Assembly: GCF_022376445.1 (NCBI RefSeq)
Contig: NW_025955098.1
Span: forward strand, 48,758-112,757
Reading direction: 5' to 3'
Origin: Fomitopsis serialis
Lineage: Eukaryota > Basidiomycota > Agaricomycetes > Polyporales > Fomitopsidaceae
Length of the DNA: 64,000 nucleotides
In this document: positions 37,561 through 54,027 of the stretch, in pieces
How the letters are laid out: the number at the start of each line of letters is the position of its first letter
How positions within the stretch are numbered: position 1 is the stretch's first letter
Translations under genes and position numbers: made by a program
Notes under the pieces: generated by a model
Seen by the model: only the letters and a program-made list of their open reading frames with translations
What the model was told of the DNA's origin: nothing
Databases searched by the model: none

Positions 37561-40457
37561 TATTATAAGGCAACTTGTAGCCCTTGTTTCATAGAGTCTA
37601 CAGTAATTTTGTTGGGCCCCAATAGTGGCTAGTTAGGCCAGGAAATGCAAAATACAAAAGAAAACACAAGAGACTTTGCAGAATTTGAACTGCTTATTTT
37701 CACCCCAGATGTGGAGCACATGACCTATACAGTGTAGCCATGTGTGTCAGACATCATGAAAATGCTTTATGGTGCCACAACAGAGCTCAGAATGGGCAAG
37801 GTTGGCTGATTTCATGCTTGCACAAGGTATTATAGCTTACATTCCATATATGGTAACATATTGTAAATGGCACATCCGTCATAAACATTTCATAGTGTTC
37901 TATGAATATCTTCTGATTTATCTGCAATTTATGAACCACCAGACATTCACTTTATGAAGAATTACTGGATTTGGAAGGTTGCTCACCATTTAGGGCATTG
38001 TGAGCTTTTGTGATACTTCTTGTGCAATAAGCCCTCCCACAACTTGCCTGAAATGTACATTTCCATGGCTCACATTAGCTACACATCACTATCTTTGTAT
38101 ACATGTCTCTTTTGTACCAGAACAGGCACAATAGCCACTAGCCAGTCACATGACCAATGACGTGGGGTCGCAACACTCGCAGCGGTGTTTTCGCTGCAAC
38201 CCCACGTCATTGGTCATGTGACTTCGAAAAAGCAGTACAAAATGCGCAGAATATTCATTCTGAGGACAAAACCTGCTGATTTGGGCCCAGAAAAATCACA
38301 TAAATCCCCAATAAACTGGGGGACCTCTCTGTAGCTATCTTAAAGTACTTCAACATTGTATGATACCAATTTGTCTACAATCACAGGTGCCACAAGGCTG
38401 CCAATCAGCTTTCATGACACAATAATAACAGTACCACATTGAGTGTTACCTGTGGCCACTCTATGATATCTTGGAGTGAATGCTCAAGATGAGAGCACAA
38501 TGTTTGATGTTTGAGGATTCAGACAGTATGACATTGAGGTATCCAGTACATATGTAGCCTGACATGTGAGAGTATGCACATCTAACAATATCACTAGACA
38601 CAGCCATGTGTGTGCTCCCAATATGTCTGATATATGCTCACAATCACAACAGAGTGGGTCTACTATTTTCCCCAGAAATTGCATTACATAGCACCCTGTG
38701 CCAATGAGTGTAGGAATGCATACTGTGCTAATTGTCATTGATACAGACAGAGAGCACAATTGAGAAAATTTCAAAGGCCAATAACTATGGAAAGATGCAA
38801 AATGGGTCACATAAAGCACTGTAATCCATGAGAAGGAGCATTAGCAACTTTGAATGTCTCACAATAGCATTTCAAGAACAGGACACAGGACACATAAAAT
38901 GCATGTATGCTGACTAGGCCCACAAAGCATTGCCCAGTGTGAGATTGCCAATTGGGAGGGCACCTGCCATATGTAGTAGTAATCATGATTGTGTGATAGC
39001 TTCTTCACAGACCTCCTCATAATTTCCATAGCCTTCATATGGAACAAAGCATGAACATGTGCAGGATATTCATTTTGAGGCCACTTAACCTCCTTGTGTA
39101 GGCTCAGAAAGAAATCCCAAACTCCAGAAAATCAATGAAGTACTAATGAATGACATATGTGGTCATTTTGCTCACCCAAAGCTCTGGACTACAGCTGATC
39201 CATCTGAAGGAGTGAAAGACTTATGCAGACTGCCTGCTATTGTGCAAGAAAAAAACAGTGATGTTGATGATATAATTCTTATTTACAGGTTCTTGCTCTC
39301 CATTGAATATTTGTAACAATGTCTGGGTCAGATTGTTGCTAGTAACTTGTTACATATGTCTGTAGTGACAGAGACATGCTATGGAATGGTGTTGGGACAA
39401 GTGATGAGGAGGAATACAGATGAGAATTCCAGTATACTGTATCTTGGCCATGTGACTGACTGTTTTTCCACAGCATGAGCTAAAATTCAGGAACAAGGAT
39501 CATGAATGTACCAAACTTAACCTGAACAGACTTTGACATTGGGAAGGTCTAGGCCAGTATAGTAACAATTTGTAGGGAAGTATATGACTCCCTACCCAGC
39601 TCAAATGGTACAATGAACTCTAATAATTATCATTATTCATTCATTAGCATGCTCTACACAGATTACGTAATAGAAAAGTCTGCCAGTTTGAGGTGGTATC
39701 ATTGTTCAGTGTTTGAGACAGTACATTATATCCCAGACATGATATAACAGGACAGCTTAGCTACAGTTAGGCAAGAGCAACTGTGCAACTGCACATATCA
39801 TTGGGTAATGGCTGTATAGCAATATTGGCATAGCTACCTGGAATCAATAATTTTTTTGGAAATGTTATGGATTGTCTAGGACACTTAGGACTCAGGATTT
39901 GTGTTACCACATTAAGGATGATGAGCTGAGCCATATGAATGTAAACATCTCTGTTACTACTATGATACTCCCTGATGAATAAAATTTGGCTGGTGCAAGG
40001 TTAGTATTATTGTTAAAGCTTGACAACTGCTTGGTCTAGTCAAGCACAGAAGTTAGTCTCACAGACTAGTATGTATCAATACATAATACACAAATCATTG
40101 ACAAGTGAGCTTGAAGTGATAATTTGATGAACCAGAAAACAAAAGACACAGACAACACAACTGGGATCGTATTGCCATACATGGCCCACTCCCCAGCAAG
40201 TAGCTTAAGTGGTCTTTACAAGAACATTGGGTACGTTTTTGGACTTTATACTCTTATATATGCACCGGAATACCCAAAAGACACGTTAGAGTACTTAAGA
40301 TGGGCCTTGGGTCACTGAAGGCACATCAGTCCGCTGGCTTTTGCTTAAGCCGACACCTCAGAAGTGAGTTTATGTCACACAAGATTCCGAGTATCGGTGT
40401 TCGCACTCAAATTCACTTTGAGGCCCCAAATACAAGATCTACTATGTGCATGAATTA
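37561..40457. other. AT-rich, CpG-poor interval without a recognisable gene
   Basis: Composition matches 1-12.7 kb. The gggcccagaaaaatcac/aatccccaataaac pattern near 38278 and gctcagaaagaaatccc near 39103 are diverged copies of the short inverted terminus described at 3030 and 11165. Only short open frames occur. From about 40120 CpGs reappear, which may mark the edge of the Plavaka element; no terminal repeat was identified. Confidence 0.5.
38144..38223. repeat. 80-bp hairpin with perfect 25-bp arms
   Basis: Arms 38144-38168 and 38199-38223 are perfectly complementary (AGTCACATGACCAATGACGT and onward), around a 30-base loop with further short pairing. It is a CpG-bearing island in CpG-poor DNA, like the structures at 11045 and 12177. 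It contains an inverted CCAAT box and a TGACGTGG, but a regulatory role is not supported; it looks like a small foldback insertion. Confidence 0.85.
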
Positions 40458-43400
40458 CTACCACAGAGTCTGATATGCGTAAGAACTCGCCCAATTGTTA
40501 AGTAGAAATTTAGATGCAGTGTCCAGTACAGTATTAGTGTTCCAATCAGTAGGTAATTGCTCAGCCTTATCACCTACAGAACCAGGGAACACAGGTATCA
40601 ACTGGCAAGATTGCCGTATAGTACTGAGGGGAACAATGTCTGCAACAGGCTTACCATCTGAGCGCAATGGGGATTTATTGACCCCATACATCATATGCGT
40701 AGGGTCAGCAGCCAAAGAGAGCTTGGAGTACCACTCTACATAGGCCAATGGCCCTTGTTCTGCCCATGATGCTGGGGCGCTCAAGGGAACGCGAGTGCGC
40801 GGGTCTGTAATATGCTCTGGAAGTCTGAATATGACTCTAACGCGTCCAATTCTCGTGCCTGATGGTGGCCATGATATGAGTAAGAATCCTCGACACAACA
40901 ACTGAGAAACATACTTACCCTGTAGCCCAGTAGCCTCAGCTTCTTCATCTTGTAATACCACCACCGTATCAAATCGACCGGTTTGTTCTCCAAATGAAGG
41001 TCGCGCCCTGACTGCGTCGGTCTCGTTTTTGCCATCTGTCAACGGTTCGGGCGCGAACTTGAACCCATGAAATACGTCGACACGATCGAAAGGCATGTGG
41101 GATACTGCTGTATGAAGCTGAACAGGGGTGAGACGTCGATTGTTTTTGAGCGTATAGATGTACTGTGCTAGTGTGTTCTTGAACCCAGGTGCGTTGTGTC
41201 TCTCTTCAATTCGATCGAGGGACTGCATGGGAACCGTTGGATGCTTCGGCAGTTTGATGCTCGTCTTGCCAGTGTGTTCTACAGCTGGGCGCGCCTCATC
41301 GACATCATCATCGTCATTGTCGTCTTCTCGGTAGTCCCTGCGCCATTCGAGTCGTCTATGCATGGTCGAGCTGAAGATGACCATCTTCTCCTGGCGTGCA
41401 AGCCAGGTCACCATTTGTGGGCGGGTGTTCCGATGATTCGAGGCTCTCCAGCCATTCTTAGCGTAGTCGATATGCAGGTGTTCGAACACCTCGGTATTGT
41501 AGTTGTTGGTTGTACCTAGCAGGCAAATCGAGTCCACGTAGTGTAAAAGAGAGTGGAACTTAGGGATGTTCAAATGTTCTCGAACACCGAGATTGATGAG
41601 AACTTGCTTATTCTTGTGAAAAATCGCGATCACATCCTCCATGTATTGCAGGGTGGTGTTGTTGTGTGTGGGGTATTGTGCTAGGTAGATGAAATCAAGG
41701 ATGGATCGGAATGCAATGATTGCATTCCGAGGGAGTTTTCCAACCAGGCATCCAAGGAGGATACACGCCATATACTTGCGTTCAGTACCGGAGACCTGAG
41801 ATAGAGCGGAAATGCCATTCTTGAAATGACGAGTTCCGTAGGCAGGCGGTAGGCATCGAATGCGACGGTCAAGCTCCTGTTCATCAACCAGTTCAGTACA
41901 CCACTGGACTATGTGTTTGAACACGCCCTGGTATAACTGGTGCAGAACATCGGGGGTGATACAGGTGTGAATGGTGGTGTACGGTAGGTCGCGCCAGAAT
42001 GGACGTACGACGTAACCGCACACGTTCAGCTCATTGCACGCTCGAGCGTACGCAGGAGAATCCTTCTTTCCGCCGCTGGTATCGGTTGCGAGGTGCAGAA
42101 CGTCCAGGGTCCATAATGATGTTCGAGATGTGCCAGGAGTGGGTGAATCAAGCTTGTCTTCCGGTAGTTGACATTTCGGACAAGTCCCGTACTTTGAGCA
42201 TGTAACGAGACATTGCTCCGGGTAGTCAGCGACGTACGCGGCTAGAATCGGGTGCACCCTGCGCACCACACCATCCCCACCGGTCACATCGATCCCACGT
42301 TTTCCAGCTTCAACAAGCGGTTCGAGGATAACACGTACGGACGTGTGGAAGAGTTGCTGCGCGAGGGCCCGTTGCTTGTGTTTCGTAATACCATCCGATT
42401 CGATTTTGTCCACGGAGAGATATCCGATGAGGATACACGTGTGTTCTGACGGTTTGCGTCTCAGAGCGCGCGGTAGGTTGCCTAGCATCATATAGACAGG
42501 GTAGGCAGATTTTCCGCCAGAAAACTGTGTTAGTTGGGTTTTGTCTGTAGCAATTATGACAGGCACAACAGCAGCCCCGTCTGGCAAGAGACTCTGACAA
42601 ACAACAAGGTAAACATCGGTGCATTCACTGACGTACAGCAAAAGCAATGCTCACCTGCACAGCATGCCACCAACGTCCAGTCCACATCTCATGGTAGATG
42701 TGATTGGTTCTTGAGGTGTCACTGAATATGCGTCTTGGACGGTAAACGATCTGATTTGCATGGGCAGGGTTGCCCAACAACGTTCAAATCACCTCGATTA
42801 TGTCCCGGAACTGTACTAGATGTCGCTCATTGGGTCGGTCCTTGAAGGTGAGCCACCTCTCCTTCCATTCGGCGTGCTCTGGAAGCGAGTCCACTCGCTG
42901 AAGCAGGGCTCGTGAGTTGTGATAAGACAGCCCTAGTCATTCCTGGAACTAGGGCGCCACAGACGCAAAATGAGTTAGTACATACAGCTTGAGCTGCAAC
43001 GCAATACTACTCACCCCCGGTATCTCCAAGACTCTGTCTACAGAGCCTTGACTTAGGCCCTCCTGAACTGCCCACGATGCGAACCTCCAGTCCATCTCGG
43101 ACTGGAACGGTGCCCATGGGTTTGGCGCTTCTTCAATATCTTCAGGGCCTTTGTCTGTGCAATGAGGTCTCAGTAACCTCACAGGACGTAACATCGTACT
43201 GTATGCAGCAGCTCACCTGGTGGTTGCACCTCCCTGTCCTTCCCCTGCTGCTCCTGCCAGCTCCTCTGTACGTCTTCGTCAGTTTGAATAACTGTTGCAG
43301 CATTCGTATCTATGTCTTCAACTCGATTGTCTTCGTTGTCGTCCAACATGATGTCATTTCATCTGGAGTGACTAGAAGACAGTCCGCCAGCGTTTGAGGG

Positions 43401-43851
43401 ACCTTCCGGTCTTGGTGCAGAGACCTTGATAAAGTCGTAGACGGACCCGAGGTCAGCGACATCCTCTGGGTCTTCATCTGAAGAAGGTGGGGAGTTGATG
43501 GGGGTCCTGCGACGATCAACTTCTGCGCGCATAGTCAAATCGCTTCCACCTTCGCCTCTGTCGTCTGGGTCAACATGGCTGGACGACCTGTAGGAGTACA
43601 TTACATATGTCACTGTCATAAATTGAGAACTCTTACAGTCCTAGTCTATTCGCATCCTGAGGGCCTTCATCGTCGGAATCTTCGAAATTGTCGAAGTTGA
43701 ATACCTCCTTTAATTTCCCCTTTTTATACCATGCACATTTTTTGCTCATGCTTTGATGTGCGGAGAGGCCCTGCATCGTGTCGAACCCTTCATTGCATGC
43801 CGAGCACGTTGTAGAGAGCACGTCTTCCAAGCTGTGTCTTCTTTTTCCCAT
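40458..43851 (-). pseudogene. Plavaka transposase with two nonsense codons
   Basis: DDE-type transposase of the Plavaka family (CACTA-related, common in Agaricomycetes). Start MGKRRHSLEDVL at 43851; an N-terminal C2H2 zinc finger (CSACNEGFDTMQGLSAHQ) in exon 1; an acidic exon 2; NPWAPFQSEMDWRFASWAV at about 43060-43130; IYHEMWTGRWWHAVQ before an intron at 42594-42654; then one long exon (42593-40458) with VIIATDKTQLTQFSGGKSAY, ILAAYVADYPEQCLV, CPKCQLP, TPDVLHQLYQGVFKHIVQW and HLHIDYAKNGWRASNHRNTR. Length and order are those of the full-length family. Two in-frame TGA codons (43359-43361 and 42784-42786) interrupt it; the second sits where the family has Arg, as expected from CGA decay. All introns keep GT..AG. 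It is recently dead, or readable only with those two stops suppressed. Confidence 0.85.
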
Positions 43852-44539
43852 AATCTGTGATAATTAATTCGTGTGAGAGTCGCCAAAAATTCAGAGGACA
43901 GAAGGAGAGACTCACATTAGCTTAGAACTAGAGGAGAAGGAGGAAAAGACTGTGCAAGACGTACGCATTGCGCGCCTGTAGTACGTTGATCTCCCCCTGG
44001 CCGGCCTTACTCAATTGACCTTCTGTTACATAAAGGTCTTTGACGTGCGTATCCGCGGGACCGAATATTCCCACAGTGCGCCTGCGACACTTCGTTGTCT
44101 CACCTTCCATCTCCTACCGTCTGCCTGACTCCTCAAAGCGATCCTACTGCTCACCGGCTCCTCATCAGCTTGCAAAATCTTTCTGGGGTCTGTGACTTTG
44201 GGTTGTCCTAGGTCAGACAAACTTCTCGCGCACGGTCGATCGTTGATCGTGGGTCGCCTAAACAGATATATTGACAACTACGTGAGTCCTACCTTTGCAA
44301 TGTGTTTGCTCTAGCTCTGCGATCTACCTCTTGTTACGGACATACTACCTGGCCCGTAGCGTAGTGGCGTGGGAAAGTGCGTGGAGTCGCACGCTTCCCA
44401 CGGCTCGGCCGCCTACGATGAGTTCGCATTAGGTGGGATCACAATAATAGAGGAGTCCCAATCCCTATGCTCAGGTCCCGGTCACCGTTCAAGAACTTCC
44501 CTGTTCTATTGCTTCGCTTTTCGTCCCTGCGCATGCACC
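43852..44539. other. Intergenic region between divergent genes
   Basis: It separates the minus-strand transposase from the plus-strand gene at 44540. Short minus-strand frames at 43928-44277 show no domain. It probably holds both promoters. A short inverted pair (gtgggaaagtgcgtggagtc / cgcacgcttcccac) lies at 44370-44400. Confidence 0.45.
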
Positions 44540-46568
44540 ATGGCTTCACGCCCTCCCGCTCGGCGTGTGGTCTCTCAGCCATACATTTCCTCTTTCTACG
44601 ACACAGCAGACCTCGCTGACGGTGTGAAGTCGGTCAACTTGGAGTATAGGGAACAGAACTTGAGAGATCTCAGTCGCGAGGATAGCTTAGAGGGCATTGT
44701 CGTTTCATTGGACGACCTTGAATCAGACAGCGGTCAAACACACAGTGAGTGAGAGCCTCCTTTCCCCCTTGCCAGACTGCTGATCATTGCTCAGAGTACG
44801 CAGAGTCCGAAGGACATTCAAGTGCAGATACCGGCAATTTAGCAGACCTTGCGGACACTAGCATCAGCGACAGCAACACTGATCTGGAGCATTCGGAGGC
44901 TGTCATCAAGAAGGTATTCGGAGGCTTAGTCGACGATCCTCTGTGGCCGTATCTCCACGATGTTCAGGTGGTAAGTCACCACTATCCTACGACATACAAT
45001 CTTAGGCTAATCGCACGGTAGACCGTTCAGCTTGAAAGCACTGATTGGGACAAGCTCCTTGAACTTGTGCAAGAGCATAACAACGTCTATCAGCTCTTCT
45101 CATGAGTGCTCCATGTGCGTCGAGGGTTCAAGCTGCGTTGGCTGAACGACCTCGCATGCGATAGCTTCCACTACAACTACGACAGCCAAATCCTCACCAT
45201 GTCAACACCTACCAACATTCACGAGCGAGTCAGCAACCTCTTCGGCGACTTGCTCGCCGTCCGCTACGGCGGTCCATGCGTCCTGAGTCTGCCGGGCTTC
45301 AAGGGCGTGCTCACGGCGGACACAAAGAGGAAGTTTGTAGGTCCTCTGCCCACACCTGACGACCCTTCACGCCACGTTCGCAAGTTGGTGGGACCGGCGC
45401 TGTTGATACCGGATGGGGCCGTGACACTTACCTTCCCGGCTCTGTTGCAAGGCGGCAACTACAATCTGCGAGTCAACCACGGAGAGCACATTGTCGGAGT
45501 CTTCGAGAAGGGGTTTAATGAGGCGTGGGATCATCTAGTATTTCGTGTACGTGGTGAAGTTATCGCGAGTTGATGTTTAGTAACAGCCTTGACAGTTCGG
45601 CCAATACAGCAGACTGCAGACGCTGAACAGGAACCCAGACGAGCTGCCGGTGTTCATGCTCAGCGTCAAGGTCATCGAGCACCCCAAGTACAAATCTCCG
45701 CATCCGTCCAGCAAGTCCACGCCCGAGCAAAAGAAGGCGTTGAAAGACCACTGGATGCCGATCACCGACAGAACACTCACCGAGCGCGAACCGAAGATAC
45801 CAGATGAAATGTTGACCGGTGAAGTGAAAATCGGGGATTACACGTTCTGCGGGGAGCTCGAGGCGTACATCGTGATCATCGGCTTCTTCAACCAGCACAG
45901 AGCTGCTTTGGTGGAAGGTTACCTAAAGCAATGGCCGGTGGAGAAATGGGTGGAGGAAGGTTACGGAATAGTGAGTCCTACAACGGCCTCTTTGCTGCAC
46001 TTTGAGCTGACAACTGCACAACTTCTAGAAGGTTCGCAGGAAGTACAAAGGCGACGAGGCACAGAAACTGAAGGACTTCACGAACATCTGGAAGTCTGTG
46101 TTCACCAAGTACAGAATTCGCATCTGGGAGAAAGGAGGTGAGGCTTGGCGGGCCTACGTCAAGGCTCAGCTGGTGAAGGGCGTGGACGTCTACTCACGCG
46201 AGGGCATTAGGGACGCCTGGAAAGAGTACCTCATGTCTGCGCCATTCAACAAGTCGGAGTCGGAGGCGGATGAGCTGCCCATGAGCGATCTCATTGACGC
46301 CATCGCGGCCGGGGCAATTACGACGGCTATGGAACACTTCGAGACCTTCAAGCGACAGGTCTGTGGCTCCTCGCCGGATCCGCCTGCTCTCGAGATCGCC
46401 CAGGGTGTTAGTGTCGCGGACGAGTTGCAGGACGATGTGTCGAGTGTGAAGCGTAAGTTCCAGGAGTGGATGGAAGAGGCCCTCCAGGAGGCGGACGTCC
46501 AGGAGCCCGATGTTGACGAGGAGCCCGATGTCAAGCGTCCTCGTCAAGTCGACGAGGAATCACTCTGA
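44540..46568 (+). pseudogene. Multi-exon gene of unknown function, one nonsense codon
   Basis: Exons join with short GT..AG introns: MASRPPARRVVSQPYISS and onward (44540-about 44745), AESEGHSSADTGN to WPYLHDVQV (about 44794-44970), ESTDWDKLLELVQEHNN onward (45022-45548), FGQYSRLQTLNRNPDE to EKWVEEGYGI (45596-45969), and KVRRKYKGDEAQ to the stop at 46568. The last exon has a WKSVFTKYRIRIWEKGGEAW stretch and an acidic C-terminus. The third exon has an in-frame TGA at 45103-45105 between FS and VLHVRRG, where CGA would restore reading. The block from THERV to VFEKGF looks like a folded domain with alternating strands, but I cannot name it. It lies between the transposase and the dioxygenase and may be element cargo. 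Confidence 0.6.
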
Positions 46569-46572
46569 GGAG

Positions 46573-46650
46573 TCATCGTCGTCGTCATTTGTATTGTCGT
46601 CGTCATTTGTATTGTTGTCGTCATTTGTATTGTCGTCGTCATTTGTCGGC
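46573..46650. repeat. 18-bp minisatellite, 4 copies
   Basis: Unit tcgtcgtcatttgtattg repeats four times with one mismatch, just after the stop codon of the preceding gene. Low-complexity 3' flank. Confidence 0.85.
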
Positions 46651-46918
46651 CGGTGGTCGTCGTATGTACGGTGTGACCTGTCGTCTCCCGTATTCTCGTC
46701 TCCCGTATTCTTGTACTCGTCACATCATTTCAGCGTCTCCTGGTCGCCTGTGTTGTTGTCGCCACACATGTCTTGTATGATCGTTGTGTCTGTTGTACGT
46801 TTGTGTACCCATGTAACATTACTATCCATCGTGTTGTGTTCAAATTTATGTTGTTAACGTACAGTGACTACTATTGTCAGATGCATAACACTGGCTTAGG
46901 ATGTGTTGATGTGTCCAC

Positions 46919-49900
46919 ATGACGATGCATAAGAGTGACGCTCTGTCTGTGATAGTACTGTATCAACTCCCTCTTGAGAAACCATACAAACTCTATTCTG
47001 CTGTGTTGCACCGCGACATGCAACTCACTGATACTGAGGCCCAAGAGCTTCTGGAGCTTCTTGTCACAGCACCTGCACTGAGCGATACATTGTCTGCCTT
47101 ACTGGCACGTTTACAAGACGTCTATCTTCCGTACACTAGCAATTGCACCTCTCAATCTATCGAAGTACCTCTCCCTCAAGACAAGCATGGCCTTGACGAT
47201 CAAGCATCCCATGAAGGGAGTGATGCACCTGGAATTGCGACAGGTGTTACAGAGCGTGAGGTTTCTGTTGTCGACTCACTGTTCTTGCTTACACTGAAGA
47301 CCAGACACAGACGTAGACGCAGACGTAGACATAGACACAGACGTAGACTTCCCAATGTTGTCGAACACTGCCAGTGACTATCATAACGAAGCTGTGTCAG
47401 ATAACTCGACAGGTGAGTCCTATTAAGAACAATTCTTGCATCTGATACCTAATCGTTCTCAGGGAACTTGGGCCCTATGCGTTCTCGGCGTCGATGCGCC
47501 CCTAAGTACACGCCTTGCCCAGTTCCAGGGAAAGATCGCGGAACCACTTCAAATGACGCAAATGTAGCCTTATGGCCCTTACCTCCCTGTCCTCGCGGAG
47601 GCATCGATTTCATTTGTGCCCCAGCAGGATCAGTGGAGGCTTCCTGGGAGGCGAGGATCGATGCGCAGTTCCAAGCGGCACAACCAGCAACTACCAATTT
47701 CATTGTTGGTCTCGCAGCAAACTTGGACACAAACCAAGTCCTGGCTACGTCTCATTCGATGTGTCGCGTTGTGTTGCCGAGGCCAGCATGTCGGAAGGGA
47801 ATTGTCTTCCTTCTGAATCTCTGGCCAGCTTGGTGCAACACTGCGCAGCACTTGAACGCAAAGGAGCGGCACACGATTTCATGTCCATGGTTGCACTTAT
47901 ACAACTGGTGTATAAGTGCGCAAGGTATATCAGTTTCTTTACTCACCGATGATTGTTTCCTAACTGCTAAGGTTCAGTATTTCCGAGCCAGGCAAAGTCA
48001 ACGTTGCGAGAATATGGAGGGTTCACATATCAAAAATAGTGGATCCTCCTCCCAAACCACCTTCCAATCGTGGTACACGTTGGGCACTCGGTTCGCGAAG
48101 GTAGCTGAAGGAGGTCAGTCGTTTCATCGTCAATATACAATGCACCTCACAGCCTCTGTAGGATCCATTTATGCTCTGATGCTGATTGCAATCAGAGGTT
48201 TGCGTGTACGTCTTGCAGAAGCTGAGGGTGTCGTTGGCGATGAGATAGGCAACATTCTGAAAAGGCCAAATACGAGTGAGTATACGTCTCTGGGCCTCTT
48301 GCACATCAGTACTTACTATCCCATACAGAGACACAAGCAGGACGAGCAGTACTGAACACTCTCATACCCTTGGTGGCTCTGCTGAGGGTGGAGTGTCCGT
48401 TGCGCCTTGCGGACTTGTTTGGTTCAAATAACGTTATCTCACAAGGAGTTTGGCGTACTCGCGTTGTGGTGATCTTGACAGCTCAGATGCGTTCTTCAAG
48501 GGTATTGCATCCAAGTACGTAGTTGATTTCCTTATCTAATGTCTGCTAGCCTGAGTTGAGTGATCTGTAGCTCGTTTGCCCTCCTGCCTCGAGATACTGT
48601 TGCATGGGCGCCTTGCAGTAGCATCGTCAAATTTACCCAAGCTCTATCGCATTTGAAGGTCCCGCCACTGAAGGTCTCAGGAAGTGTCTCAGGAAGCTTC
48701 TGGGGTCTTTGATTCAAGAGAATTGTCACCGTTGTCGCCGTTGACACCAATCTCACAACTTTGTGAACTGGAAATGGAACAGCCTGACTCAAGTGCATCT
48801 AGTACCTGCACAGTGATCAAGACGTCATACGACATTCTTCATGAGCGCAATCGACGCTTCTCTGCGTCCAGGGACAGGCAGAAAAACACTGTTTGGACGG
48901 AGCAGAGACGTCTGCTAGCAGGACAAGCCAGTACTCCCGCGACTCATCAAGTGCTAGAGCTAGATGTAAGTGCCTGATCGCTGTAACAATTCATACAGAA
49001 GCTAATGCATTGCAAAACTGTAGCTGCAGAACATGTACTGTGATGGCTGTAGATCGGACTACAAGCACTACGTCAAAATAGGACCGAATACGTTCGAGTG
49101 AGTGTGACCCTGCTGTAGTTTCAAGTCATGGAACTTACGCCTTGGTAGAGATATTCTGATTCTGGAGGATATTCGCTCAGATGCGATTGCCGGCATATGC
49201 ACTTCCATGCCAAACAACATGCGCGAGCACCTGACCGACCGTCTCACAGCCTGTTTTCCTTTCGACCCATTGAAGACGATTAGCACCGCATCATCAATCG
49301 GCGACATAACATTTGAAGTATTGCACTTCTCGTGGTATAATCGCCATTGTACACAGGTAGGTATTGAATCCTAGCTTTTCACGCTAGAAGCATTTTTGAT
49401 CGCCATTCCAGGGCAACACTGCCCCTACAGATGTGCCTCCATTTATGCTCGGTCGACCCAATGGACTAAGAGTCAACTACGCACAAATGTTACCGTACAC
49501 ATCCAAGGATATGCGGGAACACGAAGACATATATTGCTCATTGAGAAATGTCCTTGGCGACGTCTTTGAGTGGCTTGATTCCAAGGTGAACTACTACTAC
49601 ATAATAATAGTCAAACATTCGCAGCTAAATGGTTGATTGTAGCTAGCAGCAATGTTCCCGAACTTCTACGTCAGACTGGAGCAGTTCGCGGAAATATTAC
49701 CGGGCAACAGCGCGCCCTTGTCCGCTCCATTCCTCGGTCTCGTGGTGAATTTAAACGTCGTCACCCAAGCACACCGAGACAGCAAAGACTACGATATGTG
49801 TCTTGTGCTCGCGGTAGGAGACTTCGACGGTGGGGAGCTCTGCCTCGATGAACCAGGCATTGTGCTCCCTCTCTCCTGTGGAGATTTCGTTGTTTTTCCC

Positions 49901-50035
49901 TCATGTCGCATCACTCACTTCAACCTCCACTACGAGGGACGTCGAGCCTCTATTGTTTTACATACAGACAAGGAGATCACTAAATGGTACGATGGTGATC
50001 GTAACGGCTGGGCTAACAACGAATCATTTAACTAG
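46919..50035 (+). CDS. TET/JBP-family 2-oxoglutarate/Fe(II) dioxygenase
   Basis: Known family members oxidise 5-methylcytosine (TET) or thymine (JBP) in DNA; fungal members have been reported together with KDZ-type transposons. The catalytic exons are open and in frame: NMYCDGCRSDYKHYVKIGPN (49024-49098), ILILEDIRSDAIAGIC (49148-49357), LRVNYAQMLPYTSKDMREHE (49413-49586) and 49643-50035. The last holds the HxD iron motif (HRD, codons 49772-49780), GGELCLDEPG, GDFVVFPS, the distal His in ITHFN (49916-49918) and the 2OG-binding Arg in GRRASIVLH (49940-49945), ending WYDGDRNGW. Upstream exons from ATG 46919 include an Asp-rich repeat (TDVDADVDIDTDVDF), GYVSFDVSRC and FAKVAEGG. Frames cannot be joined cleanly near 48440 and 48680, so a frameshift or unusual splicing exists there. 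The catalytic part itself appears intact. Confidence 0.8.
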
Positions 50036-50265
50036 TGTATCAGTAATGTAATCTGTTCTAATCGAAGCAGTTCTACTCGAAGAAATCCTACTCGAAGAAC
50101 CCTCATAAGTAAGTCTTAGAACCTGAGTCTCGAAGAGCCCTCAAGTTGATCGGATTCGATAACGCGAACTCCGCGAGTACGGCGGTCTTCGGAAACTGCG
50201 AAATCTCGCGCCGGGCACTGTGCGCTCACCTTCCTACAACCCTCTGCATTCTCCAAGCCCTCAAG
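50036..50265. other. Intergenic region with tandem ctcgaagaa units
   Basis: A short run of tctactcgaagaa-like units (50060-50105) between the dioxygenase stop and the next start. Both genes are on the plus strand. Confidence 0.5.
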
Positions 50266-53200
50266 ATGGCATCGCGAACTCGCTCAGCGACCAAAAAGCA
50301 AGCCCCAGGACATCGCCAAACATCGCAAGCAGCAACAAGCGCCGGTCAGAAGGGACGCGCGAGACGTCAAAATACTAGCGTGTCGCCTGCCAGTGAGAGC
50401 GACGTTGCCAACGTCGACACAAGCGGTCTGTCCCAGTCCGATGCAAAGGCCTTAGCGAGACTCCTCAAGAAAGCGAAGGTTGCGAAGGAAGCTGAGGCTG
50501 AGTCCCATGTAAAGAGTGAGTGCCAGTACGTATGTCATCGGACAAGAACTCTCACACTTACGAGCAATCCCCAACCCTAGACACTCGCAAGAGGGTGGTC
50601 GATATGATGAGGGATGAGGAGAGTGAAGACGAGCTGAAGCACACCAAGAAGAAGAAGAAGAAGACTGGCAACAGAGACTACGATGGCGATGCGGATGCGG
50701 ACGACGGCGATGCGGATGCGGACGACGGTGATGCGGATGCGGACGACGGCGATGCGGATGCGGACGACGGCGATGCGGATGCGGGCGATGGCGCTGTGGA
50801 GACGAAGGGCAGCGTAGGAGAGGACGATGAGCTGGAAGTTGAGGAGACTCGCGTTGATGAGCATAGGAGGAATCAGGGGAATCAGGAGAAGGAAATTCGG
50901 TCGCGACGTACGTTGTGCACAGCAGTGATATTTGTTGCTGACCTGACCACACCTCAGCCAAGCCGAGGCCAGCGTATAAGGGAGCTCCATCGCTCCCCCG
51001 AAAACCAGCCCATCTTGACAAGGAGGAGGCCAGTGTAGCGAAGTCACTTGGTGCGTAGAGTAGTACCGCGCTGTCATGGACACACTGATAAGTTGGGATA
51101 TTATAGGTGCTACGACGTCTTCGAGGGGCAAGAGTAAAGCTTCGCGTGTCAATGAAGACTCTGGAGACGATGGTGAAGAAGGTGAACAGGTTGTCCGGAA
51201 TATCAAGAAGTCCACTGGCAAGAGTAAAGCCTCGCGTGTCAATGAAGACCCCGGAGACGATGGCGGCGACGGTGAACAGGTCATTCGGAATATCAAGAAG
51301 TCAACTGGCTCCTCGTCTTCTGCGAAGAAGGTAGCACCGGTCAATCCGCCATCTCCGTCACAGGCCAAGCGCAAGGTATATATTGACGTGCCGATTGTGG
51401 TGAAGGTAAGTGAATCTCTGTTAGATTTGCTTAGTGCTAACCTCCCCTTGCTCAGTCGCCAGTGCGTGGAACAACCTCGAGGTCAGCCAACGACAAGGAC
51501 AAGCCGAAGAAGAAGGCAAATCGATTCCAGAACGCCAGCGGCAGCGACAGCGACAAGGACACCCACAAGAGCTCCGAGGATGCAAGCGATGACGACGACG
51601 ACGACGACGAGTATGCAGGGAGTGATGGTGGCAAAGGGAGTGACGAAGGAGGCGAAGATGTGGATGAGATCGAAGATGAAGATGATGACGATGGTGTAGT
51701 GGTGAGCCATCATCTTCTGGTACTTGGTTTGTAGCTCAGAGTACAGGTCTTGGCCGAGCCTGAGGGCAAGGCTAAGCAGAAGCGCTCCAAGGGTAGTCGA
51801 GGGCGCAGAGAACGAGCGAAGATAACCAACCTGCCCATCGCAGTCAGGCCCCTTGTCACAGCATCGCAAAACTGCCTTCGCCTGCGAATCGCGCTCAAGA
51901 CCGCGTGGACGGCGGAATCCTCAGTGAAAAGCGGACGACTTCCGAAACGAGATGCCTTAATCCATGACAGCTTGCAGGATGCCCACGAGATACGGGATAA
52001 GGACGGCAAGCGCATCAAGGCATTGAAGACTGCTTTCCGATTGATCAACGGTCCCAAGGACGAAGAGAAGAAGAGTGCGAAGAAGCGAACTGAGAAGGAG
52101 GAGAGGGAAGAGAGAGAGCGTCTGGCATTGCAGCAGGATGTCTTCACTGTGGTGAGTGTGTTATTCATGCGCAAGGGCTGGGACTCTGATTGTGTGTAGG
52201 TCTGGGCGTCCGCATCGCAGTTCCGAAATGAACTGAAGAAGAAAGCCAAGGTCGTTGTCGACCAGATGTACGGCTTGCTGGGTTTGAGTCCTGAGCAGCG
52301 AAGGGGAGTTGCTGTATGGCTTCTTAGAACGCACGCTACGGACGTCCTGGAGGGGGGTTCGCGAAACATACCGAACTTCGTCTTCAGCGACATAGACATC
52401 GTCTTCGACGAGCACAAGCGATTGGACGTGAAGGTGAGTGAGTTCCCTAATGCATATCAAGAAAAAACTCTGATCTGTGACAGGCTACTACGTTCAACCA
52501 GGATGAGCCCTTTCGCCACGGGGCTATAGCTGAGCTGGTCTACCAACACTGGGCGTTGGGAGCGCGTCCGGACGCTAACTTGCACGCGGCGATGGACGAG
52601 TTTCGCAAGGTCCCGGACAACCTTATTGCCGTCGTCTGCAATGCTGTGAGCAGCCATATTCTAATCACATCGCGTGGTTAATCATTGCAGCAGATCGAGA
52701 GTGCTTTGACGGACGTTGTGACTAATGGCCAGAACTTCTTCACTAACAAGCTGTTCGCCGCGAAGTGAGTTGCGATGTGCTGTTATTGGGGTGTTGTACT
52801 GACTCATAGCAGGTGGGATGGCCTGATGGCGATCCTTTCGACGCTCAAGGAAGAAGCGCCTGAGCACTACAAGGAGACTAAGTCGATTATCTGGGCTCAG
52901 ATCTCGTAAGTTAGTACATGAGCAGCTCATATGCAGGAACTCACTATCTATCTACAGCGTTCGCCTCAAAGCAACCACCGTGGAAGACGACACGTCTGAT
53001 AACGCGAAGGGCTCGAGCTTCCTCAAGATCGATCGTTTGCGTGCCAAGGTCGGCAAATCGTCTCCTGTACAAGAGAGGGGGAGAGCGACCTCCATCAGTA
53101 CGACACAGGCAGCGAGCGCGAGCGCGAGCACGGTCGTGAGGCAGGCGTCAAGCCCGAGGAAGTCTGGAGGATCTGGAAAGCCTCCGTCAAAGCCTTCGTC

Positions 53201-53477
53201 AAAGCCATTGTCATCATCCAAGACGGCCAGTGGCAAGACAGCGAAGTCTGCCGCCAATCATGATGTGGACGTTGACATGGACGGCGAAGGCGAACTCGAT
53301 GGCGACGGCGAACGCGTTCAGGGGGCGCCAGAGGCTTCTGGTAGCAAGGTCATGGAGCGTCCAAATGAAGAGGAGCACGTCGTCGATGAGACCGTGGGTC
53401 CCCAAAGTCAAGGTACGTATTCTAGTTTGCTGCACAGAATATATATTTGAATCATTTTCACAGGGACGAACGTCTGA
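50266..53477 (+). CDS. DUF6532-type protein with acidic low-complexity N-terminus
   Basis: It starts MASRTRSATKKQAPGHRQ; exon 1 ends 50515, exon 2 runs 50581-50907, exon 3 50958-51050, exon 4 from 51107; later exons continue to the TGA at 53475-53477. All joins are GT..AG and no stop intervenes, so it is intact. The N-terminal half is low-complexity: five GDADADD units (50685-50790), a 34-residue duplication (GKSKASRVNED.. at 51128-51330) and an Asp/Ser tract (51580-51690). The C-terminal half fits DUF6532: RNELKKKAKVVVDQMYGLL, NFVFSDIDIVFDE, DEPFRHGAIAELVYQHWALG, NLIAVVCNA and IESALTDVVTNGQNFFTNK. DUF6532 proteins are numerous in Agaricomycetes; their function is unknown. Lys-rich patches and length suggest a nuclear protein (inference). 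Confidence 0.75.
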
Positions 53478-54027
53478 ACGACAGGCCACGATATCCAACG
53501 TGAGTACATTGACTGGCTGTGTGGTTAGCAGGCTGGCTAATGCTCAGTGAAAGGGAAACACATCATCATACGCAATATCACCACATCTACTATCCCTTGG
53601 AATCGAACAATGTAGTAGTACGATTTTTCTTTGTTTGCTCAGGCTGTACTTGAATCGTCGTCCACATGTTGTGAATATGCTGTTGTTTGTTGTAACGATA
53701 TGAATGAATGCTTAGCATGCTTGCCAATGACTAAAGTGAAATTCAATAACCACGTACTGAAGTAAATAAAGACCAATAGTACTGGTGCAATAAAGACCAA
53801 AAGCAGGCTGAGACAGTGACTTCATATGAAGGAGGAAAGTAGTTGACGAAGGGGCAACTGGCACAATCTTTATTCATGGTCAAAGACATCCCAAGACTTC
53901 AATGCACTTATTGAGGGCATTGAAGATTTGGACTTGTCTCAAGCGCCTTTGGGTACTCAGATACACTTTGGTACCTCTACAAGACCATTTAAGACATGTA
54001 GGTTTTTCCTGATGTTGGTGAGCAACA
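53478..54027. other. AT-rich intergenic region
   Basis: Contains two aataaagacc repeats (about 53766 and 53790) that could serve as polyadenylation signals. No gene is recognisable. Confidence 0.5.

Follow-up and report, generated by a model that had tools for sequence, protein, structure and literature searches.

TET+ elements have been described from eleven transposon lineages (Kojima 2025, PMC12730594). Among these are complete TET+ PlavakaB elements, with the ends CATCA..TGATG, from Agaricus bisporus and Gymnopus confluens, and the TET of the known Plavaka elements is of the PE type, whose hallmark is HxE. For Polyporales, the parts of that account covered here report TET+ Kyakuja alone. 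According to Kojima, a link between Plavaka and TET was implied by Iyer et al. (2014) for Fomitopsis pinicola and other species; in the species of that link, Kojima found a TET+ Plavaka element in A. bisporus alone (PMC12730594). The original prediction for the locus studied here presented the association of TET with Plavaka as new, and as an extension from KDZ to a second CACTA-related family. Kojima's account takes away both claims: the link is in print, and the CACTA-related CMCT clade takes in Plavaka, not KDZ. Oxidised methylcytosines have been reported at transposons in Laccaria and Coprinopsis (PMC8889193), and DUF6532, Plavaka and KDZ are merely listed among enriched domains in the covered part of another study (PMC8955403). 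The general concept of a transposon-borne demethylase is thus already published. Capture of demethylases by transposons as a means of escaping silencing has been proposed, without experimental validation in the literature covered here.

We analyzed a 64,000-nucleotide stretch of the genome of the wood-rot fungus Fomitopsis serialis (the window, whose coordinates are used throughout; the copy in it carries the contig label C44). Like the PlavakaB elements of A. bisporus and G. confluens, the element in the window belongs to a family with CATCA..TGATG termini, a 2-bp target duplication, and transposase and TET within one element (Table 1). Unlike those elements, whose TET is PE-type (HxE), its TET has HxD in 30 of 30 copies. 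Also unlike them, it is found in Polyporales, with a DUF6532 neighbor and a gene without known family (gene X); DUF6532 is not mentioned in the covered part of Kojima's account of PlavakaB (PMC12730594). The pairing of Iyer et al. in F. pinicola is the same gene pair, possibly from the same lineage in a congener, and is known as a gene association. In the papers that our literature search reached, we found nothing on TET+ Plavaka in Polyporales beyond that implied link, and nothing on DUF6532 as a partner of TET or Plavaka. A TET+ Plavaka in Polyporales, its HxD enzyme with a 5mC-type pocket, the recurrent DUF6532 neighbor, and a footprint of CpG mutation appear to be new.

Table 1. Features of the element in the window.
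Feature	Position	Strand	Basis or remarks
PlavakaB transposon copy, Fomitopsis serialis	40201..54014		About 13.8 kb; matches to C265 and C804
Left terminal inverted repeat, remnant, TAGCTTAAGTGGTCTTTAC	40201..40219		Complete left end in C265 and C589
Plavaka transposase gene	40461..43852	-	PF18759, E = 2.6e-85, 286.9 bits
Gene X	44540..46568	+	No family known; exon model by eye; protein of the C265 sister copy about 585 aa
TET/JBP dioxygenase gene	47018..50035	+	11 exons predicted; C265 and C804 proteins of 830 aa
Catalytic exon of TET/JBP	49643..50035	+	H 49772, D 49778, D (H+5) 49787, distal H 49916, Arg 49943
DUF6532 gene	50266..53477	+	PF20149 in exon 52200-52529
Right terminal inverted repeat, ending ...TAGGTTTTTCCTGATG	53981..54014		Sequence; junction vs. 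empty site in C288/C634
Target-site duplication TT, right copy	54015..54016		C589 left and C44/C265 right junctions vs. empty site

The order of the genes is transposase (minus strand), gene X, TET, and DUF6532 (all plus strand). In the window, the left terminus is short of its outermost 17 bases or so, and the right end is complete. The sister copy in contig C265 begins with CATCAGGAAAAACCTA; from 40201 onward, until the C265 contig ends, it is 98.9% identical to the window. Another copy, C804, is an independent insertion of the element, collinear with the window from 40200 to 54014 over nearly its whole length (five pieces, 73-79% identity), with both termini present and AC flanking each side. 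Both CATCA..TGATG termini are complete in C265, C804 and C29, and in all three of these elements, one pair of terminal inverted repeats encloses all four genes (13,778 bp, 13,768 bp and 16,287 bp, respectively). No match to the KDZ transposase domain PF18758 was found inside these three elements. A scan for the terminal 16-mer, with one mismatch allowed, found 69 sites, as compared to 1 for the reversed control. Inward-facing pairs of terminal repeats within 35 kb numbered four; besides the three complete elements, there is a pair in C237 (31.7 kb) that encloses Plavaka and DUF6532 without a TET match. The same genes are present in C264, with an internal inversion.

The insertion site could be identified as well. 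The first 1.1 kb of the window's element is also found in C589 (99% identity), and copies of the flanking repeat in C288 and C634 lack the element. The TT duplication was derived by comparing the left junction of C589 and the right junctions of C44 and C265 to these empty sites. At the ends of C29, we saw no clear 2-bp duplication. C44 and C265 have different left flanks, neither of which fits the right flank; the left junctions of both copies are rearrangements or assembly joins. In the window, the truncated left end abuts a 1.7-kb repeat (38500-40201), which has several copies (96-99% identity) that end at the same base. We assign the element to PlavakaB by its PF18759 transposase, its CATCA..TGATG termini, and its 2-bp duplication, where 2 or 3 bp are expected (TT for the window's insertion, AC for C804). 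We had also considered PlavakaA, with the right end read as TGT..ACA, and dropped it because C265 and C804, where the terminus is complete, show CATCA..TGATG. Overall, TET is part of a Plavaka element, and transposase and TET recur between a single pair of terminal repeats in other copies, both as originally predicted.

To see how often these genes occur together, we counted neighbors across the genome. The 104 exon matches for this TET (103 rows) merge to 91 loci, which include likely alleles and fragments and are not independent events. For Plavaka, 123 of 323 candidates were scored, so counts of Plavaka are lower bounds. At no fewer than 30 of the 91 loci, a Plavaka transposase sits upstream, at 7.1-8.8 kb and on the opposite strand, while the controls from the same scored candidates gave 0 (same strand) and 1 (mirror distance downstream). 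This bears out the expectation that other copies of the dioxygenase adjoin Plavaka. The other 61 loci have no match at this spacing among the scored candidates, and contig ends, fragments and the partial scoring may explain some of these. At 48 of the 91 loci, the same strand carries DUF6532 at 1.9-4.4 kb downstream; the control counts were 2 (opposite strand) and 0 (upstream). At a distance of up to 10 kb, at least 38 of the 91 loci have Plavaka and 4 have KDZ; of 39 other TET loci, at least 7 have Plavaka and 28 have KDZ. There are therefore two pairings of TET with transposons in this one genome.

The two genes have also diverged together. For the 14 copies with both gene sequences retrieved, the distance matrices of TET and Plavaka are correlated (r = 0.838), and they are still correlated with two near-identical copies dropped (r = 0.805, 12 copies). 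These values were reached in 0 and 1 of 20,000 permutations, respectively. The correlation is consistent with a single old association, as opposed to repeated capture. Most TET identities are below those of the transposase core in the 14-copy matrices.

The original prediction recognized the TET/JBP fold from HxD, a distal His, and an Arg, and this identity holds up. HxD and the distal His are present in 30 of 30 copies and the Arg in 29 of 30, in that order; HxD reads HRD in every copy. The TET proteins of C265 and C804 have no internal stops. The best fold matches for the predicted model of the protein are CcTet, NgTet1, TET2, and CMD1, above other 2OG enzymes. By sequence, the C265 protein had no match among PDB sequences up to E = 5, and our profile from alignment A1 gave just unrelated matches in the search for TET structures (E of at least 0.22). 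The expected match to PF12851 does exist, for the exon as well as for C265 and C804, and at 27.7-31.0 bits it falls below the curated cut-off of 34.9 bits; a relative (P0007) passes with 39.7 bits. As anticipated, purifying selection acts on the catalytic exon: its median dN/dS is 0.082, with a maximum of 0.20 (30 loci, giving 435 pairs, of which the 40 with a dS of 0.05-2 were used). Between C265 and C804, dN/dS is 0.22 for the whole protein and 0.11 for residues 561-830.

The pocket gives a hint about the substrate. The Asp at H+5 is invariant (30 of 30 copies). In the part of a structural study covered here, NgTet1 Asp234, hTet2 Asn1387 and CMD1 Asp350 bond the N4 of 5mC and block 6mA, while CcTet has Gly331 at that position of the pocket and uses Asp337 instead (PMC11040006). 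Because the invariant Asp occupies the position of NgTet1 Asp234 and hTet2 Asn1387, which binds N4 of 5mC, the pocket predicts that the substrate is methylcytosine rather than methyladenine, and that the enzyme is a conventional 5mC oxidase unlike CcTet. The AG-type pattern of CcTet (Gly or Ser at 331 and Asp at 337) is absent, given the invariant Asp; at the 337 position, we aligned the Cys at H+9 by eye. Identity to CcTet is 14% in a structural alignment, and identity to NgTet1 (from Naegleria) and to human TET2 is 11-14%, with neither described there as transposon cargo. Also, the partner transposase of CcTet and of the AG-type TET of Kyakuja/Zisupton is KDZ, and here it is Plavaka. A CcTet-like TET match (L004, C265:23462-23929, E = 5e-12) lies about 1 kb to the left of the element's terminus in C265.

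Relatives of the Plavaka-linked TET are found in Plicaturopsis, Artomyces, Bondarzewia, Serpula, Suillus, Heliocybe, and Gymnopilus, which represent several orders of Agaricomycetes. Of 28 database proteins, 22 include the site, which is HRDxxD in 21 and HREAGN in one, from Artomyces. For 8 of the 26 relatives that we retrieved, a precomputed DUF6532 domain is in the same gene model, which points to the same neighborhood, or to a putative fusion, in other fungi. In the Artomyces pyxidatus protein (P0015), the iron site is HRE and not HRD. This places the PE-type hallmark within the Plavaka-linked group and may leave room for PE enzymes having arisen from the Plavaka-linked HxD group. A wider search for homologues, starting from alignment A1, found 3 proteins, with no PE-type sequence among them. 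We put at about even the chances of a broader reading: this TET would be a fourth transposon-borne class beside PU, AG, and PE, with an NgTet1-like HRDxxD...C pocket; it would have co-evolved with PlavakaB transposases and a DUF6532 partner across Agaricomycetes; the CpG scars on these elements would come from the very methylation that the enzyme serves to remove; and this one genome would thus contain two independent TET arms races, one with KDZ (CcTet-like pocket) and one with Plavaka (NgTet1-like pocket).

Comparisons of close copies suggest that the elements' CpGs are modified. C44 and C265 (L039), which are copies of the same insertion, differ by 125 substitutions, of which 110 are CpG transitions. 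In 101 of these 110, C265 has CpG and C44 has TpG or CpA. Counted in 1-kb bins, nearly all of the substitutions (118 of 125) fall between 40.2 and 49.2 kb, with 7 in the 9.3 kb beyond, so the tract ends sharply near 49 kb. It spans the transposase, gene X and the upstream TET exons of C44, and C265 is open at the damaged places. We compared ten further pairs as well. CpG transitions account for most of the substitutions in C795/C190 (32/44), C3/C261 (13/15), C335b/C23a (17/21), C121/C779 (2/3), and C154/C768 (3/4), and for 2 of 4 in C23b/C156. There was no clear excess in C296/C223 (10/28) or C179/C642 (1/7), the diverged pair C296/C466a has 53 CpG transitions among 288 substitutions, and C154/C466b has no substitution. 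The bias is thus common in young pairs without being general, and it has the form that methylated CpG would be expected to produce. The genome has one match to a C5-methyltransferase (E = 4.1e-11), and a C-to-T bias at CpG and other dinucleotides is known in fungal transposons (PMC4352252).

The tract also explains the contrast that had drawn attention to the window's copy. There, the exon preceding the main exon of the transposase has two extra stops relative to the frames of C265 and C804 (the model upstream of the main exon was drawn by eye), while the main exon, 40461-42650, is open (a frame of 730 aa). Gene X has lost a splice donor relative to C265, and the upstream TET exons are broken, with five one-base losses. 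A dead transposase beside a live dioxygenase had been taken as a hint of a separate selective value for TET. We reject this argument as drawn from this copy: whether the tract is mutation or error, it is the tract, and not selection, that accounts for a dead-looking transposase next to an intact-looking catalytic exon. The tract hits the transposase, gene X and upstream TET alike.

Our preferred reading, which we consider probable, is that this is a cut-and-paste family of the PlavakaB class that has carried TET as cargo for a long time, usually with DUF6532 and, in a subfamily of its own, with gene X, and that TET counters silencing methylation. That the genes lie within one pair of terminal repeats, with a 2-bp duplication, a fixed order and spacing, and co-divergence, is observed, as is the purifying selection on the catalytic exon. 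The role of TET in demethylation is what we infer. The transposase would move the element; the TET protein would oxidize 5-methylcytosine at CpG in the element or the genome; and this would counter a methylation that keeps the element silent and exposes its CpGs to mutation. Alternatively, TET might ride in the element without serving it, with selection maintaining a host function or activity toward a different substrate (RNA, thymine, or methyladenine). The 14-copy matrices give TET a rate of evolution no lower than that of the transposase core, as a passenger might have. We nevertheless think this unlikely, given the fixed gene order, the co-divergence with the transposase, the low dN/dS in dispersed copies, and the invariant position that contacts 5mC; also, one would hardly expect a single host gene to be present in so many copies. 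It is far less plausible still that transposase and TET are separate insertions that happen to be neighbors in a repeat-rich region. The region is nested, with repeats on both flanks of the element, and the insertion site in C634 is within another Plavaka match. But collinear elements with both terminal repeats in other contigs contradict this explanation, as do the empty site and the counts at one spacing and orientation, so we rejected it.

A different doubt concerns the CpG differences between C44 and C265, some of which could reflect errors in base calling where bases are modified. If they were base-calling or assembly errors throughout, then the window's copy would really be as intact as C265. 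All five one-base losses in the TET exons of C44 (47760-48673) are at CpG, as are 5 of the 6 one-base indels between C335b and C23a; such losses are odd for deamination, which does not explain them, and may be errors of this kind. The sharp end of the tract near 49 kb also fits. On the other hand, 101 transitions in one direction that preserve length resemble deamination, and the errors would themselves need modified CpG. On balance, we lean against this explanation while giving it appreciable weight. With dozens of copies of two classes of TET in two transposon lineages, and predicted differences in the pocket, the F. serialis genome has close pairs that differ mainly at CpG, which makes the question of silencing evasion directly testable.

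The other two genes in the element are more obscure. Gene X has 8 matches in the genome, and the 4 database relatives among the matches listed are all from F. serialis. It has no match in Pfam; one of its proteins, P0029, has one weak NCBIfam match, far below that family's cut-off, and the predicted structure for gene X has low confidence (mean pLDDT of 38.1). Our guess is that the DUF6532 protein or gene X might be an accessory for targeting or DNA binding. The public gene model P0001 (B0H18DRAFT_1124959, about 48.8-53.5 kb) contains PF20149 (65.9 bits) and fuses TET exons to the DUF6532 gene. It omits the stretch of the catalytic exon that encodes the distal His and the Arg, so the annotation hides the enzyme.
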